From Phycisphaerales bacterium (GTDB lineage: Bacteria; Planctomycetota; Phycisphaerae; Phycisphaerales; SM1A02): a stretch of 64,000 bases of DNA. The notes under the pieces are model-generated. The model did no database searches. It was not told where the DNA came from and was given only the letters and a program-made list of their open reading frames with translations. The translations under genes were made by a program, and so were the position numbers. The stretch spans positions 62,001 through 126,000 of the forward strand of contig JAKVBU010000011.1 of assembly GCA_022446885.1 (NCBI GenBank), read 5' to 3'. Shown here piece by piece: positions 10,166-49,294 of the stretch; within the stretch, counting starts at the first letter, position 1, and the number at the start of each line of letters is the position of its first letter.

Positions 10166-11140
10166 ATGATCTCTCTCATGACTGCAGTTCGATGCCTCAT
10201 CGGCGGTGTTCTGATGGGGCTGGCGAATCTTGTCCCAGGTATCAGCGGCGGCACCATGCTGCTGGCCTGTGGGGTCTATCGGCGGTTCGTGGACGCCGTT
10301 GCCCGAGTCACCACCTTCCGCTGGTCGATGCAGGCCCTGGCTGTGCTCGCCGTGATTGCAACTGGCGCGGGGGCCGCGATCCTGCTGGGGGCGGGTCTTG
10401 TCAGCGAATTGGTGATCGAAAACCGTTGGGGCACATTCAGCGTGTTCCTGGGTCTGACGCTGGGTGGCATTCCGCTGGTCTGGTCGCTGGTGAAGCCCTG
10501 GCGGACCTCGTCAATCATCACCTGCCTCATCGCAGTTCTCGCCATGGCCCTGCTCGCCTTTGCCCCCGCATCGCTTGGGGCGCAGGCTGGTTCGAATTGG
10601 GTCCTCCTGTTCATCGCTGGCCTGCTGGGCGGCGCAGCCATGGTGCTGCCCGGACTCAGCGGGGCCTACCTGCTGCTCATCCTCGGCCAGTACGTGGTCA
10701 TTCTCAGTTCGATTGAAATGTTGCTCGAAGGTGGCTCGATGGGCGAGGCGATGCGTGTCTTGGTGCCGGTAGGGTGCGGCGCCGTGGTGGGCATCGTTGG
10801 CATCAGCAATCTGATGAAGTGGCTCCTGCAGCGATTCCCCCACGGCACACATGGGTTCCTGTTGGGGTTGCTGGCAGGTGCCGTCTTTGGCCTGTGGCCG
10901 TTCTACGAGTACCGCACGCCTGATGTAGGGCAGGTCATTCGAGGGCAGGAAGTCACCCAGGACTGGATTGACACGCCCAAAAACCGCAAGCACTGGCCCA
11001 CAGCCGTGTTTTCGCCCTCTGGAGGGCAAGTGGCAGGCGCCTTCGCACTTGGGCTCATCGGATTCGCCGGATCGGTCTCCATTGGCCGCCTGGGGGCCCG
11101 GGAGGCCTCTGGTGAGGGCGTCACGACTAAACGCAACTGA
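10166..11140 (+). CDS. DUF368 polytopic membrane protein, probable polyprenyl-phosphate transporter
   Basis: It has 324 residues, with about eight to ten hydrophobic helices. The family hallmark is near the N-terminus (GLANLVPGISGGTM) and is repeated in inverted form around LPGLSGAYLLLILGQY near residue 170. DUF368 proteins have been shown in other bacteria to recycle undecaprenyl phosphate across the inner membrane for wall and surface glycan synthesis; transfer of that role here is by family. A loop after residue 245 (GQVIRGQEVTQDWIDTPKNR) is soluble. The gene stands alone, and its transcript could read into the small-RNA island downstream. Confidence 0.88.
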   Translation: MISLMTAVRCLIGGVLMGLANLVPGISGGTMLLACGVYRRFVDAVARVTTFRWSMQALAVLAVIATGAGAAILLGAGLVSELVIENRWGTFSVFLGLTLGGIPLVWSLVKPWRTSSIITCLIAVLAMALLAFAPASLGAQAGSNWVLLFIAGLLGGAAMVLPGLSGAYLLLILGQYVVILSSIEMLLEGGSMGEAMRVLVPVGCGAVVGIVGISNLMKWLLQRFPHGTHGFLLGLLAGAVFGLWPFYEYRTPDVGQVIRGQEVTQDWIDTPKNRKHWPTAVFSPSGGQVAGAFALGLIGFAGSVSIGRLGAREASGEGVTTKRN

Positions 11141-11214
11141 CTGTCACCACGGTGATTGGCACTGCTGCCACAAAAAATGACTGCGAATGTGCCCCATGAG
11201 CAAACCCGGGGCTG

Positions 11215-11328
11215 GTAGTGGCGTATCAAAGGCACATCGCTGGTGATCAAACACGCCAGCAACCTCATCTCGCTCCTCTCTCCTCTCTCCACCAACGGCC
11301 CCGTGCAAACGGGGCCGTTGGTGTTTTT
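11215..11328 (+). ncRNA. Candidate small RNA A with C/U-rich tract and terminator
   Basis: This stretch cannot be coding across its 3' half because it ends in a perfect 15-bp hairpin and U run. Ahead of the hairpin is a tract of about 22 bases (11269-11290) made almost only of C and U, rich in CUCCUCUC, which could pair with AGGAG-type ribosome binding sites. A second copy with the same order of elements lies about 275 bases downstream. The 5' end is a guess: GTAGT at 11215 is where visible similarity with copy B begins. An alternative is that it is merely the 3' UTR of the DUF368 mRNA. Confidence 0.5.
11290..11328 (+). terminator. Rho-independent terminator A
   Basis: Perfect inverted repeat: the left arm at 11290-11304 and right arm at 11309-11323 pair over 15 bases around a GCAA tetraloop, followed by five T at 11324-11328. 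The orientation is plus strand only; there is no matching T run on the other side. It is far stronger than anything seen after other genes in the window. Confidence 0.9.
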
Positions 11329-11487
11329 GAGCCCCAAAGCTGGGATGGTGGGCGGCTCAGAACAGACGCTGCCCACGACACAGCCGCCGCCTGCACAGAT
11401 TGAGCCCTGCTTCAACGGCGTTTCTGGCCCAAAAACAGCGACTGTCAGAAAATTCGCACTGAAGCCACACATCCCAGCGAGTGCTCC
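11329..11487 (+). other. Spacer between the two candidate small RNAs
   Basis: I see no ORF with a family match and no clear promoter hexamer. If copy B is transcribed independently its promoter must lie here; TTGGGG and similar weak boxes are not convincing. Confidence 0.5.
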
Positions 11488-11620
11488 GTAGTTGGGGGTG
11501 AAGCCAATGACAGGCACCTGCAAGACGCCTGAACAAGATCATTCGCTTCCTCTCTCCTACTCGACTCCTCTCCTCATCTCCAACCATCGGCCCTGCTTAG
11601 GCAGGGCCGATGGTGTTTTT
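11488..11620 (+). ncRNA. Candidate small RNA B, paralogue of A
   Basis: Similar to copy A in order and sequence: GTAGT, a CAA-ACGCC-CAA-CAT-CGCT series, CCTCTCTCC, a longer C/U tract (11547-11582) and a hairpin plus U run. The stem sequences differ at several positions yet both pair perfectly, so the structure is kept while sequence drifts, as expected of a duplicated RNA gene. The function is unknown; the C/U tract could act as an anti-Shine-Dalgarno seed. A tandem terminator arrangement is the alternative. Confidence 0.5.
11583..11620 (+). terminator. Rho-independent terminator B
   Basis: A 14-bp perfect stem (11583-11596 with 11601-11614) with a TTAG loop, then G and five T at 11616-11620. 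Compared with terminator A the stem shows paired changes, for example GCCCCGT against GCCCTGC, with compensating changes on the other arm. Confidence 0.9.
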
Positions 11621-11862
11621 CTCCCTCGCCTATCTCACTGCCCTTGGATCACCTGTTGTCGCCAGCAATGAAGCAATCGCCCCCTTCCGCCTCCACCCCG
11701 CGTTGGCAACTTGCGGAGGCCAATGAACAAACACGCTCGTCGAACACCCCGTGCAGCGCCTGATTCGGGCTGTTTGGCCCCAATAGTGAAGCACGCTGCC
11801 GTGACTGGCCGAGATTGCCTGCGGAGACTGACCCTCCGCCATGGACGGCTTCGGGAGCAGCG
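11621..11862. other. Non-coding stretch before small hypothetical gene
   Basis: No ORF with a plausible product on either strand and no third hairpin. A minus-strand ORF of 145 codons spans this region and the next gene but has no recognisable protein character. Confidence 0.4.
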
Positions 11863-12126
11863 ATGACAGAGGCAAAACGACTGCGAGCCAAGGCGCAGCA
11901 TCTTCGCAAGCATCTCCTGCAGCAACAGGAGATGCTCGATGCGTCGCTTGCGGCAAACGGAACGGATGACCCGATTCGGCATGTCACCGGCCGCTCTTCG
12001 CTGGAGCAGGCCATCGAGTCAACCAACGAGATGATCCGCAGCATCGATCGCATCCTGCACGAGGAGGTGCCGGCACCGATCGTCACTTCGGTGCGAGGAT
12101 TTTCGAGGCTTCGCGTGGGCGCCTGA
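11863..12126 (+). CDS. Small hypothetical coiled-coil-like protein
   Basis: A protein of 87 residues. Start ATG 11863 has GGGAG five bases upstream, better than the in-frame ATG at 11815. The protein is predicted from composition to be two helices: a basic N-terminal one (KRLRAKAQHLRKHLLQQQEML) and a second one (SLEQAIESTNEMIRSIDRIL) separated by a short turn, ending in a Val-rich tail. No family is recognised. It has no membrane segment. It could be a small regulatory or structural protein; that it is a gene at all rests on the ribosome site and helical pattern. Confidence 0.55.
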   Translation: MTEAKRLRAKAQHLRKHLLQQQEMLDASLAANGTDDPIRHVTGRSSLEQAIESTNEMIRSIDRILHEEVPAPIVTSVRGFSRLRVGA

Positions 12127-12187: not shown

Positions 12188-12634
12188 ATGTCCATTCGAC
12201 CGACGTTGGCCGTGCAGAAGTTGCACCAGAATGCCCAAGTGCCTCGCCTGCAAAGCGAAGGCGCCGCCGGCATGGACCTCCACGCCTGCCTCGATCAACC
12301 CATCACAATTGCTCCAGGCGACATTCACCGCATCAGCATTGGCATCGCCATCGCGCTGCCAGCGGGACATGAGGGGCAAGTTCGCCCTCGCTCAGGGCTC
12401 GCCTCTCGCCATGGCATCACGTTACCCAATGCCCCTGGAACCATCGATGAGGATTATCGCGGCGAAGTACAGGTGCCCCTCATCAATCTCGGGCGAGAGC
12501 CATTCACGATCGAGCCGGGCATGCGCATCGCCCAACTTGTCATTGCACCTGTGACTCAATGCGATTCGATTGAAGTGTCCTCGCTGGACGCAACCGCGCG
12601 CGGCAGGAGTGGATTCGGTTCGACCGGCGTCTGA
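12188..12634 (+). CDS. dut: dUTP diphosphatase (trimeric dUTPase)
   Basis: The enzyme, of 148 residues, hydrolyses dUTP to dUMP and pyrophosphate, keeping uracil out of DNA and feeding thymidylate synthesis. All five trimeric dUTPase motifs are visible: AGMDLHA, RPRSGLA, NAPGTIDEDYRGE with the catalytic Asp and the uracil-selecting Tyr, RIAQLVI, and the C-terminal RGRSGFGSTG arm. Full length. It is convergent with the deacetylase gene, with 2 bases between the two stops. Confidence 0.97.
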   Translation: MSIRPTLAVQKLHQNAQVPRLQSEGAAGMDLHACLDQPITIAPGDIHRISIGIAIALPAGHEGQVRPRSGLASRHGITLPNAPGTIDEDYRGEVQVPLINLGREPFTIEPGMRIAQLVIAPVTQCDSIEVSSLDATARGRSGFGSTGV

Positions 12635-15319: not shown

Positions 15320-16453
15320 TCAATGGCCGAAGAGCGACCCGGGCTGAGCGAACATTCCAGCGGACTCGAAGTACTCCAATGCCGCATCGACATCGGGGAA
15401 GATCTTCGTAGCCGTCTCGGTGATGAATGGCGAAGGGGCCTTCGCCGGCTTCCACACGACGTAGACCTCTTTGGTGTGCTCCCATGCGTGCTGCAGTTCT
15501 CGCTCCACACCAGATGAGAGGCCGGGGATTCCCCCGGGCAACTCCGGCACCAGCGACACGATCATGTCGCTCTGATCGATGAGTTTGAAGTCACGCATGT
15601 AGATTTGGCCATCTACATCACCGGCGATGTCGAGCACTTCACGCACCCGCACCTTCACATCGGTGCCTTCCCGACCACCGAATGCGTGCGGCGTGACATC
15701 CAGCCAATCCTTGCCGTCTTTGGCTGCCTCGATGGCCCGATCGAGCAGCAGTTTTTCATCGACATCTGCGGGATCAAACGTAATGAAGTGCTCGGCCAAG
15801 GCGGCTCGGAACCGACCGATCTCCTCGAGCACATCAGGCATGTCTACAACATGACTCATGGGAAACGACGGATACACCTTCCGCATCTCCGGACGAGTGA
15901 TCAGCCTCGCGCAAGTGTTCACAGTGTCTTGCTCACGGCCGCGGCTGAGAATGTAGAAGCGATCGCGGCAGCCCATGGCCGCGGCCAGCAGCTCGGTCAC
16001 GATGATCTCTTCCTCACGCCAAACGATGCAGTCTTTCAAGGTGGCGTCGATCTCGTGCCCCTGATGCAGTCGGTGGTGCACCATCTCAATGTTGTCCAGC
16101 AGGCAGATGAACATGTCTGGCTTGAGCATTTCCATCTGGTCGAAGTCGAAGGCGCTGAACAGCCCATGCCGCCAGCGGAAGGTGGCATGTGTGTTCACCA
16201 CGACATCGGGGTGTTCCGATGCTGGCGACGTCTGTGAGATGATGTCCTTGAATGCTGCTCGGCGTAAGGTTGCCAATCGGCTCAGGGGAAGATCAAGGAT
16301 TCGCCCGTCGCGAATGTCGGGCGCCTCACGGTACATCATGTCGCCCACGTGGAACGACTCGATCGGCCTGCCTCGTTCGGCGCACACTGACTGGACGGCT
16401 TCCAGATAGGGCTTCTTGTCGATCCCGATCTGCCCGGTAATGACTGCTCGCAT
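15320..16453 (-). CDS. P-loop kinase-like protein with C-terminal deoxyribosyltransferase-like domain
   Basis: A protein of 377 residues. The N-terminus (MRAVITGQIGIDKKPY) is a nucleotide-binding loop of the GxxGxxKK kind, as in adenylate-kinase-like and dNK-like proteins; DMFICLLDNIEMVHHRL and later segments fit a nucleotide kinase fold. Residues about 290-377 (DFKLIDQSDMIVSLVPE, then SGVERELQHAWEHTKEVYVV) have the pattern of nucleoside 2-deoxyribosyltransferases: Asp on a substrate loop, then GxxxE before a helix. Start ATG 16453 has GGAGG 8 bases upstream; longer ORF starts lack support. The true function is unknown; nucleotide salvage or nucleotide-signal handling is inference. Confidence 0.6.
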   Translation of the reverse strand: MRAVITGQIGIDKKPYLEAVQSVCAERGRPIESFHVGDMMYREAPDIRDGRILDLPLSRLATLRRAAFKDIISQTSPASEHPDVVVNTHATFRWRHGLFSAFDFDQMEMLKPDMFICLLDNIEMVHHRLHQGHEIDATLKDCIVWREEEIIVTELLAAAMGCRDRFYILSRGREQDTVNTCARLITRPEMRKVYPSFPMSHVVDMPDVLEEIGRFRAALAEHFITFDPADVDEKLLLDRAIEAAKDGKDWLDVTPHAFGGREGTDVKVRVREVLDIAGDVDGQIYMRDFKLIDQSDMIVSLVPELPGGIPGLSSGVERELQHAWEHTKEVYVVWKPAKAPSPFITETATKIFPDVDAALEYFESAGMFAQPGSLFGH

Positions 16454-23705: not shown

Positions 23706-24622
23706 GGCGATAGTGGCCTGGCGAACACGTCCATCTGGGCGACTGCATCGTGGAACGCTGCCAAGGCACCATCGCTCGGGCCAGTCTCATTGCTACGAGG
23801 CCGACCAACATCGACGCCCATCCAGCCCATGATCGCCTTTGCGCCATCGAGCACACCAATGCGCACGAGCTCCCGCACGAACATCACTGCATCGACGTTC
23901 GCCGCTCTGGCAGCGGCCATGTCTCCGGAGTCAAACGCACTTCGAATTCGTTGGTAGACGGGCGCCGCGTAGTTGTAGGTGCTGCCGACGGCCCCTCGGA
24001 TGCCGATGGCCAAGGCACCCAGCAGCATCTCGTCTCGCCCCATGAGCATCTGGCAACGCCCCTCGCCAACCGTCATGGCTCGAGTCAAGGTGGCGAGATC
24101 CTCGTTCGTGTACTTGGCCCCGGCCAGTGTCGGAAGGGCGTCCATCGCCGTTTCCAACAGCTCATCCAGCGGCACATCAATGCCCGTCAACGACGGCATG
24201 TCGTAGTAGAACAGTGGCGTGGCCCCGGCGGCTTCGGCCACCGGCTGCAGGTACCCAAGCACACCGTCGATACTGTGAACCCCTGCACCGGGTTCAACCA
24301 GACACGAGATGGCGTCAAGGCCAATTGCTGCGGCATGCTGGGCCAGCGTGCATGCATCATGTACGCCCACCCCGCCGACGTGTGCGATCAGGGTCAGCGA
24401 GTCTCCTGAAGCCTCAGCCCAGGCATCGATGAGACGACGACGCTCATCAAGAGATAGTGCGAACCACTCGCCGGTTGAACCGCCGACAAACACCCCGATC
24501 AAGTTCTGCTCCATGAAGAGGGCGGCCTGGTCGTTGATCCGGTCCAACGCCAACTCTCCAGCCGAGTCAAAGGGCGTGTGAGCAGCGGCGATGAGTCCAT
24601 CCAATGTCGGCAGGCACGTCAT
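23702..24622 (-). CDS. nanA: N-acetylneuraminate lyase (DapA/NAL superfamily)
   Basis: A class I aldolase of 306 residues, cleaving sialic acid to ManNAc and pyruvate. Evidence for NAL rather than DapA: VGGSTGEWFALSLDERR (the GSTGE carboxylate loop), LFYYDMPSLTG with the proton-relay Tyr, GAKYTNED with the Schiff-base Lys, and GRDEMLLGALAIGIRGAVGSTYN, close to known lyases. The pattern looks nearer to vertebrate NPL than to E. coli NanA, by eye only. Start ATG 24622 leaves 25 bases to the divergent symporter start. It is the first gene of a two-gene operon with the epimerase. Confidence 0.9.
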   Translation of the reverse strand: MTCLPTLDGLIAAAHTPFDSAGELALDRINDQAALFMEQNLIGVFVGGSTGEWFALSLDERRRLIDAWAEASGDSLTLIAHVGGVGVHDACTLAQHAAAIGLDAISCLVEPGAGVHSIDGVLGYLQPVAEAAGATPLFYYDMPSLTGIDVPLDELLETAMDALPTLAGAKYTNEDLATLTRAMTVGEGRCQMLMGRDEMLLGALAIGIRGAVGSTYNYAAPVYQRIRSAFDSGDMAAARAANVDAVMFVRELVRIGVLDGAKAIMGWMGVDVGRPRSNETGPSDGALAAFHDAVAQMDVFARPLSP

Positions 24623-48203: not shown

Positions 48204-49061
48204 TCAGGAGGCCTTTCGTTGGGCGTACCCCGGACGGGCACGCTGGCTGAGTCGCTTTTGGATGCGCTGGAGCGTTTCCATCTCGATCTGCCTGACCCGT
48301 TCTCTCGTGAGCCCGATGACGGCACCGATCTGCTTGAGCGTCAGAGGAGACTGCCCCTCCAGGCCGAATCGCAGCTTCAGTACCCGGCGATCGCGATCGG
48401 CGAGTTCCTCGATGACTTCCAACACCACCTCAAGATCGTCGTTTCGTTCGACACTCGTCTCGGGCCGGCTGTTTCGTTGATCCTCAAGGACCTCCGTGAA
48501 GTCCAGTGAGTCGCCATCGTCGCTCATGCCGGTACGTCGAGCGGATCGGCGAGTCTGCATCGCCTGCACAACGATCTCAGCCTTCCGGCGTGGCAACTCC
48601 AACACCTTGGCCGTCTCGTCAATCGTCGGTGGGCGGCCCAGGTCCTCTTCCAGCCTCGCCGACTCACGGCGCCATCGCCCGATGAGCTCAACCATGTAGG
48701 CCGGCACATGAATCGGTTGCGTGGCGTTGAGCAGCATCCGCTTGATCGCCTGCTTGATCCACCAGGCCGCGTACGTTGAGAATCTCGCGCCCTGGGCGGG
48801 GTCAAATCCCTCAACCGCTCGAATGAGTCCGATATTCCCCTCTTCAATGAGGTCGCTCAGGGGCATGCCTCGGTGGATGAACTGCTTGCCGATCGCCACA
48901 ACCAGCCGCAGATTGGCCCGAATCATGCGGTCTTTGGACTCCAGACAGCCATCGTTGATGATCCGCCAACCGAGTTCTCGCTCCTGCAAGGGGGTCAGCA
49001 GGGGCACCTCGTTGATGTCTCGCAGATACGTCTCAAGATTCCGGTCGTTGAATCGTGCCAT
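48204..49061 (-). CDS. RNA polymerase sigma factor, sigma70 family (RpoD-like, without region 1.1)
   Basis: A protein of 285 residues. Region 1.2 (LETYLRDINEVPLLTPLQERELGWRI), regions 2.1-2.4 (RLVVAIGKQFIHRGMPLSDLIEEGNIGLIRAVEGFDP, FSTYAAWWIKQAIKRML), region 3 and region 4.2 (LTLKQIGAVIGLTRERVRQIEMETL) are complete. Length and absence of the acidic 1.1 domain suggest a group 2 or small primary-type factor recognising -10/-35 promoters like the housekeeping one. It follows a palindrome and hairpin region. Start ATG 49061 has GAGG 6 bases upstream; an upstream in-frame ATG at 49115 is possible. Confidence 0.94.
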   Translation of the reverse strand: MARFNDRNLETYLRDINEVPLLTPLQERELGWRIINDGCLESKDRMIRANLRLVVAIGKQFIHRGMPLSDLIEEGNIGLIRAVEGFDPAQGARFSTYAAWWIKQAIKRMLLNATQPIHVPAYMVELIGRWRRESARLEEDLGRPPTIDETAKVLELPRRKAEIVVQAMQTRRSARRTGMSDDGDSLDFTEVLEDQRNSRPETSVERNDDLEVVLEVIEELADRDRRVLKLRFGLEGQSPLTLKQIGAVIGLTRERVRQIEMETLQRIQKRLSQRARPGYAQRKAS

Positions 49062-49095
49062 CGTTGCCTCAGCGTCGTCCCTGTTCCAATGCCCT

Positions 49096-49110
49096 GTCCA
49101 TGACATGGAC
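49096..49110. promoter_or_regulatory. 15-base perfect palindrome upstream of sigma gene
   Basis: GTCCATG-A-CATGGAC, two 7-base arms around one base, 35 bases before the sigma start. It has the size of a repressor site. It also includes an alternative ATG start context, so a coding explanation is possible if the longer sigma start is used. Confidence 0.35.
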
Positions 49111-49121
49111 TCCATAAGCCC

Positions 49122-49157: not shown

Positions 49158-49294
49158 AGTGGAGCCATGGCTCGGCGCACAGCATCGACTCGACTATGCC
49201 GCCGCTTGAGCCACGTGTGCCGTATTTGCGGGACTTGAGGGCGTTTCTCGCCTCAAGTGCCCGCACCACCCGAAATCAGGACAGGATTCCCCTC

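Follow-up and report, generated by a model that had tools for sequence, protein, structure and literature searches.

The interval between a DUF368 gene and a dUTPase gene in this planctomycete raises the question of what two similar C/U-rich units are, which factor drives them and what their pyrimidine tracts do. In this study, we analyzed the units within the window (the whole stretch of DNA examined, 64,000 nucleotides) and compared them with other genomes of the family, order and phylum. The locus is arranged as follows:

10166–11140, + strand: upstream DUF368 / VCA0040-like gene, PopT-type polyprenyl-phosphate translocase (popT; Pfam PF04018, E = 1.7e-40)
11201–11328, + strand: unit 1, promoter to terminator
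11466–11621, + strand: unit 2, promoter to terminator
11863–12126, + strand: small conserved ORF, 3' of the units (87 aa from the ATG at 11863; 103 aa if the start is 11815)
12188–12634, + strand: dUTPase gene (dut)

Both units thus lie between the DUF368 gene and the small ORF and dut. The DUF368 product scored 104.3 bits with the NCBIfam PopT model, under the 400-bit cut-off; according to PMC9876793, DUF368 proteins are candidate undecaprenyl-phosphate translocases. Pfam gave no match for the small ORF (11815–12126), and an Rfam scan of the window at gathering thresholds returned tRNA only. Both units beat dinucleotide shuffles in folding (z = -6.67 for unit 1 and -6.55 for unit 2).

The original prediction described two small-RNA candidates built from the same words in the same order (CAA-ACGCC-CAT-CGCT-CCTCTCTCC) and closed by perfect hairpins of 14–15 bp plus five T, and all of these are indeed present in both copies. 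Outside the tract and terminator, the two units align poorly with each other. Their predicted parts are:

11233–11328, + strand: unit 1 small RNA, with a putative 5' end 6 nt past the -10 hexamer
11239–11260, + strand: unit 1 5' hairpin GCTGGTG...CGCCAGC (z = -4.47, mononucleotide shuffles)
11268–11289, + strand: unit 1 C/U tract, predicted single-stranded (mean unpaired probability 0.85, taken over 11268–11293 and so including four stem bases)
11290–11328, + strand: unit 1 intrinsic terminator (15 bp perfect stem 11290–11323, TTTTT)
11498–11621, + strand: unit 2 small RNA, with a putative 5' end
11547–11582, + strand: unit 2 C/U-rich stretch, able to pair with the 5' domain through its 5' part
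11583–11620, + strand: unit 2 intrinsic terminator (14 bp perfect stem 11583–11614, GTTTTT)

For the unit 2 tract, a 17-nt part scored 0.55 unpaired. Four terminator-like sites were found between 10900 and 12000 on both strands, versus 1.2 (sd 1.0) in shuffled sequences.

We then considered how widely such units occur. Three genomes of the genus were compared, and in the same place after the DUF368 gene two tandem units were present in G001 and one in G002. A covariance model of the tract and terminator only (R1, five sequences) was searched against 121 genomes of the family and produced 17 matches at E ≤ 1e-5 outside the genus; all 17 were read, and 15 of them were complete units with a promoter. 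The R1 matches L050 and L051 were rejected as units, as they look like gene-end terminators without tract and promoter together, and another seven (L054, L055, L056, L059, L060, L062 and L066) were rejected by eye as members. A second model (R2), built from 23 whole units of 15 genomes, was searched against 181 family genomes. Matches at E ≤ 0.001 occurred in 53 of them, and full-length matches of at least 41 bits in 21, representing six of 45 genera (g1, g46, g47, g52, g5 and g8), with G006:C44 and G089:C49 counted on score alone. Units 1 and 2, both of which helped to build R2, scored E = 1.8e-19 and 8.6e-24, respectively. Each locus contained one to three copies. The R2 match L098 in G193 (39.5 bits) was rejected for want of a promoter and L100 was rejected by eye; no unit was seen by eye in the approximately 330 nt downstream of 21 DUF368 loci of other genera (L015–L035).

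Two wider samples, which overlap each other and the family, covered the order (301 genomes) and the phylum (392 genomes). Outside the family, full-length R2 matches in these samples reached only 25.3–28.4 bits, and the best match of any kind (38.5 bits) covered only model positions 93–153. R2 matches at E ≤ 0.001 were present in 24 genomes of the same order outside the family; the two read by eye (L107 and L108) consisted of tract and terminator only and were rejected as members. Conservation was thus found in one family only and not in Planctomycetota at large, as covered by the order and phylum samples. The covariance searches, a check envisaged when the elements were first noticed, revealed conservation beyond the hairpins and outside this genome, in six genera of this one family.

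Some further C/U-rich sequences were observed in g19. Three loci (L099, L101 and L103) have a short hairpin, a C/U tract and a G+C-rich terminator behind a different upstream sequence, and might be divergent members. Two others (L061, approximately 1371–1570, and L064, approximately 1371–1560) share a longer RNA-like sequence (GTGGAACTGCCGATAACC...) that ends in a TTCTC-repeat tract and a terminator, for which Rfam gave no match at threshold.

Thirty RNAs of the family were scored for structure, with the start set 6 nt after the -10 hexamer, and their predicted lengths ranged from 95 to 137 nt. A 5' hairpin was usual in g1, g46, g47 and g52, and there was little or none in g5 and g8; for 23 of the 30 RNAs, the 5' part folded more stably (z < -1) than its mononucleotide shuffles did. 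The C/U stretch as scored was 13–62 nt long (median 25.5), its unpaired probability had a median of 0.80 (range 0.34–0.99), and in the predicted folds it was a linker before the terminator and not part of hairpin loops. In the terminator, compensatory changes were found at 14 of 15 pairs (alignment A5, 23 rows), which supports the earlier view that the structure is kept by selection. For the 5' hairpin, no covariation was obtained by alignment, as A6 and A7 fail to line up the 3' arms.

With regard to expression, a promoter-like signature, [A/C]A[A/C]AC followed after exactly 16 nt by nRTA, was present upstream of all 32 units checked with the relaxed pattern. Its putative elements in the window are:

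11201–11205, + strand: unit 1 -35 element CAAAC, followed by the 16-nt spacer 11206–11221
11222–11227, + strand: unit 1 -10 element CGTATC; GTAGT (11215–11219) falls within the spacer and precedes this element by 7 nt
11466–11470, + strand: unit 2 -35 element CACAC, followed by the spacer 11471–11486
11487–11492, + strand: unit 2 -10 element CGTAGT, which includes GTAGT

In the 16-nt register common to all units, GTAGT is part of the putative -10 element of unit 2 and is out of register in unit 1; its initial assignment as a word of the RNA unit was thus rejected. A spacing of 16 occurred in 22 of 23 upstream regions, compared with at most three in each of 200 mononucleotide shuffles, and the 23rd region (G081u1) has CGTAAC at spacing 16 as well; a spacing of 14 occurred in 11 of the 23 (ACACAC phase), and every other spacing in five or fewer. 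The 32 units comprise these 23 and nine later ones (three in G196, one each in G194, G009, G064, G091 and G067, and a weaker one in G116), the nine being biased towards the promoter since they came from a model with promoter columns. Among the 23, G089 and G006 were weaker R1 matches picked partly for a visible promoter, and G081u3 is a tandem neighbor. Six other MAMAC-N16-CGTAG sites in the own genome were all within stop-free frames of at least 150 codons, and a scan of the locus for sigma70 sites found none. Judged from its sequence, the promoter of the units looks ECF-sigma-like, with short elements at fixed spacing, a layout resembling that of ECF-sigma promoters such as those of SigW. 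That the units are genuine genes for small RNAs, each under a promoter of its own, is very probable. The same promoter was also observed in G116 (L106, 1501–1633, - strand) before an RNA whose C/U tract is short and whose terminator is of the GTCGACC type.

The explanation that we favor, with a probability of about 0.5, is an ECF-driven regulon with an anti-Shine-Dalgarno-like RNA arm. Each unit would encode one small RNA, with transcription starting from an ECF-sigma-type promoter ([A/C]A[A/C]AC-N16-nRTA) and stopping at an intrinsic terminator, neither of them shared with another gene. Once active, an extracytoplasmic-stress sigma, for which the best candidate is the product of G000:C34:797–1339 (whose own gene has the same promoter class), would drive its own gene, the small RNAs, genes for envelope and secreted proteins, and the gene for an RpoS/RpoD-like sigma. 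The RNA, roughly 95–125 nt in this genome, would carry a hairpin in its 5' part, followed by a C/U tract (CUCCUCUCUCC repeats) that stays largely unpaired and by the terminator; base pairing of this tract to Shine-Dalgarno sequences (AGGAG/GAGGAG) would block translation of selected mRNAs. The small RNAs would then be the repressive arm of an envelope-stress regulon, and tandem copies may raise the dose or split the targets.

Which sigma factor reads the promoter was approached through co-occurrence. Sigma region 2 was matched 13 times in the own genome, one gene being the best candidate:

G000:C34:797–1339: candidate ECF sigma gene, with conserved GCACACAC...CACATAGTTG upstream, common to the G002 ortholog

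At a cut-off of at least 170 bits, orthologs were found in 34 of the 181 family genomes (eight genera), namely in 17 of 21 RNA-bearing genomes versus 17 of 160 others. At the genus level the ratio was 5/6 for RNA-bearing versus 3/39 for other genera (Fisher p = 2.6e-4, shared ancestry ignored). No ortholog was found in four RNA-bearing genomes, i.e. G001, G085 (99% complete, with a clear unit), G089 and G101, and 12 of the 17 genomes with the ECF gene and no accepted unit belong to g19, which has the other C/U-rich candidates. The promoter class itself preceded the ECF gene at 15 of the 34 loci read: at N16 in g47 (6/6) and g5 (2/2), and at N17, some sites being readable as N15, in g1 (2/2) and g46 (5/7). 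It was not found in g19 (0/12), g12 (0/1) and g15 (0/1, 350 nt searched), nor in g8 (0/3, one of which retains a -10-like CATAG); the fact that g8 bears RNAs counts against the ECF link and slightly lowered our estimate both for this link and for the favored explanation. Where present, the site lies 244–436 nt before the core motif, and thus a long leader would be expected for the ECF mRNA; at the loci inspected, GAGGAG or AGGAG mostly stands at the end of this leader, ahead of the start codon. At L134, L135, L137–L141, L143–L149 and L151 (g1, g46, g47 and g5), the leader seems to be approximately 150–350 nt long, parts of it are alike between genomes, and it could hold a regulatory element. 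On balance, the chance that the units are controlled by this ECF ortholog seems slightly below even.

We also searched for other genes with the promoter. The pattern MACAC-N17-RTAGNNGG had 94 matches, spread over 17 of the 18 genomes searched, versus 91 for the reversed control, which means that there was no genome-wide bulk enrichment. What speaks for a regulon is that matches recur in front of related genes; 40 of the 94, chosen partly for such recurrence, were examined. The promoter preceded one protein family in all six g47 genomes (L164–L168 and L186; L165, the one member scanned, matched FecR with 25.3 bits, cut-off 24) and another family in five g47 genomes (the member scanned, L200, is an amidohydrolase whose ORF begins approximately 400 nt downstream). 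It also preceded a GT2 family in three genomes, of which L171 was scanned, and, in both G001 and G002, the gene for an RpoS/RpoD-like sigma. Apparently secreted proteins were likewise among the recurrent cases, and beta-helix, FG-GAP and HD-domain proteins were among the single ones. We infer that genes of these kinds would be expected under the control of an envelope-stress sigma. Four sites in the window fit the strict pattern, namely those of unit 2 and of a sigma gene and another two at 16383–16409 and 23932–23957 (both + strand). The sigma gene and its promoter are:

48204–49115, - strand: RpoS/RpoD-like sigma factor gene (Pfam Sigma70_r2, r4 and r1_2)
49194–49219, - strand: putative promoter CACAC-N16-CATAG before this gene, with similar ones at its G002 and G001 counterparts

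The best NCBIfam model for its product was RpoS (237.7 bits, below the cut-off of 378.7). From its upstream sequence, this gene is a probable fellow member of the regulon. A promoter shared by a sigma gene and small RNAs would also allow a sigma cascade. Overall, the small-RNA case is stronger than in the original prediction, which had missed the promoter class, the sigma link and the wider regulon.

The same observations bear on another possibility, namely that a different sigma factor, such as the RpoS/RpoD-like protein encoded at 48204–49115, reads the promoter and that the RNAs are an output of stationary phase or general stress. The presence of the same N16 promoter before that gene, the RNA-bearing G085 and three other genomes in which the ECF ortholog was not found, the situation in g8 and the number of sigma-region-2 matches in the genome would all agree with it. 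However, the short elements at fixed spacing look closer to ECF promoters of the SigW type than to sigma70 sites, and the ECF gene co-occurs with the RNAs; we regard this possibility as doubtful, although it is the most serious one.

With respect to the tract, its core CUCCU is complementary to the AGGAG Shine-Dalgarno consensus and is predicted to be largely single-stranded, and a 16S 3' end from the family (L056) carries CCTCCTTTCT. Pairing was computed against 56 predicted window genes, with starts chosen partly by Shine-Dalgarno strength and hence biased: the medians were -14.7 kcal/mol at starts and -10.7 kcal/mol in coding sequence versus -13.2 kcal/mol for the shuffled tract at starts (unit 1), and -15.9 and -13.0 versus -15.8 kcal/mol (unit 2). 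As shuffled tracts pair nearly equally well, the pairing at start sites is largely explained by composition. Hfq (PF17209) was found in none of 61 genomes, the own genome included, and the control was positive in 5 of 14. We lean, by a small degree, towards anti-Shine-Dalgarno repression in trans by the tract.

Alternatively, the RNAs might serve as sponges or scaffolds whose C/U tract binds an RNA-binding protein and not mRNAs. A long, repetitive tract of such variable length (13–62 nt) is beyond the need of one seed, which would fit this role, as would the failure to detect Hfq; but the tract is inherently complementary to the purine-rich Shine-Dalgarno core, and we consider protein binding unlikely. 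A bolder version of the ribosome-site reading is that the tract imitates, in portable form, the anti-Shine-Dalgarno tail of the 16S RNA and is no seed for a few mRNAs: under envelope stress, the sigma factor would flood the cell with tandem RNAs that compete with ribosomes for AGGAG sites in general, acting as a global, chaperone-free brake on translation. Tract length and copy number would set the strength of this brake, and the GAGGAG of the ECF mRNA would provide negative feedback. This is speculative and seems somewhat less likely still.

The position of the units after popT suggests another explanation, in which they are tandem terminators or 3'-UTR elements of popT, the small RNA is a processing by-product and the C/U tract aids termination or end protection. 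Indeed, there is no other + strand terminator-like site from the popT stop (11140) to 11290, so unit 1 probably ends the popT mRNA too, and popT adjoins the units at the g1, g47 and g52 loci and one g46 locus. Relatives of the small ORF (11815–12126) accompany the units in g1, g46, g47 and g52, where dut lies downstream of them. On the other hand, every one of the 32 units has its own predicted promoter, and the gene-end terminators L050 and L051 lack the combination of tract and promoter. In addition, popT was not found in at least 1.4 kb of flank upstream of the g46 units L041 and L089 (that of L042 and L048, also g46, being too short to judge), and the g5 and g8 loci, likewise covered for at least 1.4 kb upstream, showed neither popT nor the small ORF nor dut. 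We thus rejected the view that the units are only a popT 3'-UTR element, and the by-product explanation as a whole appears improbable; the earlier expectation of RNAs separate from the DUF368 mRNA agrees with these predictions. That tract and hairpins act only at the DNA level, or reflect neutral expansion of a repeat with no role as RNA, is highly improbable: tract length does vary strongly, like that of slippage-prone repeats, but compensatory changes, fixed promoter spacing and the same architecture in six genera speak against this view.

Returning to the ECF-driven RNA arm, the present RNAs resemble known systems in layout and match none by sequence at threshold. A permissive Rfam scan of 16 loci gave six matches, all below gathering scores, including the RybB model on L044 (28.1 bits versus 40, tract and terminator only) and the ylbH model on the opposite strand of L058 (28.1 bits versus 50). 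PMC4132741 describes LhrC1-5 of Listeria monocytogenes as multicopy sRNAs with CU-rich motifs, induced by envelope stress, with one CU-rich motif single-stranded between two stem-loops and predicted pairing to the Shine-Dalgarno region. Multiple related copies and a CU-rich single strand between two stem-loops are shared by the present units (g5 and g8 without a clear 5' stem). In contrast with LhrC, which depends on LisRK and has three UCCC motifs in near-identical copies, the present units have a promoter that looks ECF-type and one long tract in diverged copies; they match no Rfam family at threshold, the permissive scan of the 16 loci gave no LhrC, and Hfq was not detected in the 61 genomes searched. 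The seed of RybB lies at its 5' end, whereas the present RNAs would use the tract. RybB, MicA and MicL form the repressive arm of the envelope-stress ECF sigma of E. coli, sigma-E (RpoE), as presented in PMC8103513. The present units would be similar as a repressive arm if their fixed-spacing ECF-like promoter (32 of 32 units) is read by the candidate ECF sigma; they differ in that the Hfq dependence of that arm has no counterpart here (PF17209 in 0 of 61 genomes). The CCUCCUCCC anti-Shine-Dalgarno RNAs SmelA075 and SmelA099 (Alphaproteobacteria, Rhizobiales) have, according to PMC3927594, a repeated C/U anti-Shine-Dalgarno sequence and variable stems. The repeated sequence is a likeness, whereas their motif is in hairpin loops of one RNA and the present tract is linear, with a promoter and terminator per copy. 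The same CCUCCUCCC motif is carried by CcsR. In PMC8307010, CcsR1-4 of Rhodobacter are placed under alternative sigma factors, with sigma-sRNA feedback loops, and are transcribed with an upstream gene, whereas the present units have their own predicted promoters.

As they have no Rfam match at threshold, the units appear to be an undescribed sRNA family of uncultured planctomycetes; sRNAs of this group had no description among the matches listed in our literature searches. To our knowledge, little is known about regulation in this lineage, for which the units would outline an ECF-like regulon together with C/U-tract riboregulation without detectable Hfq.
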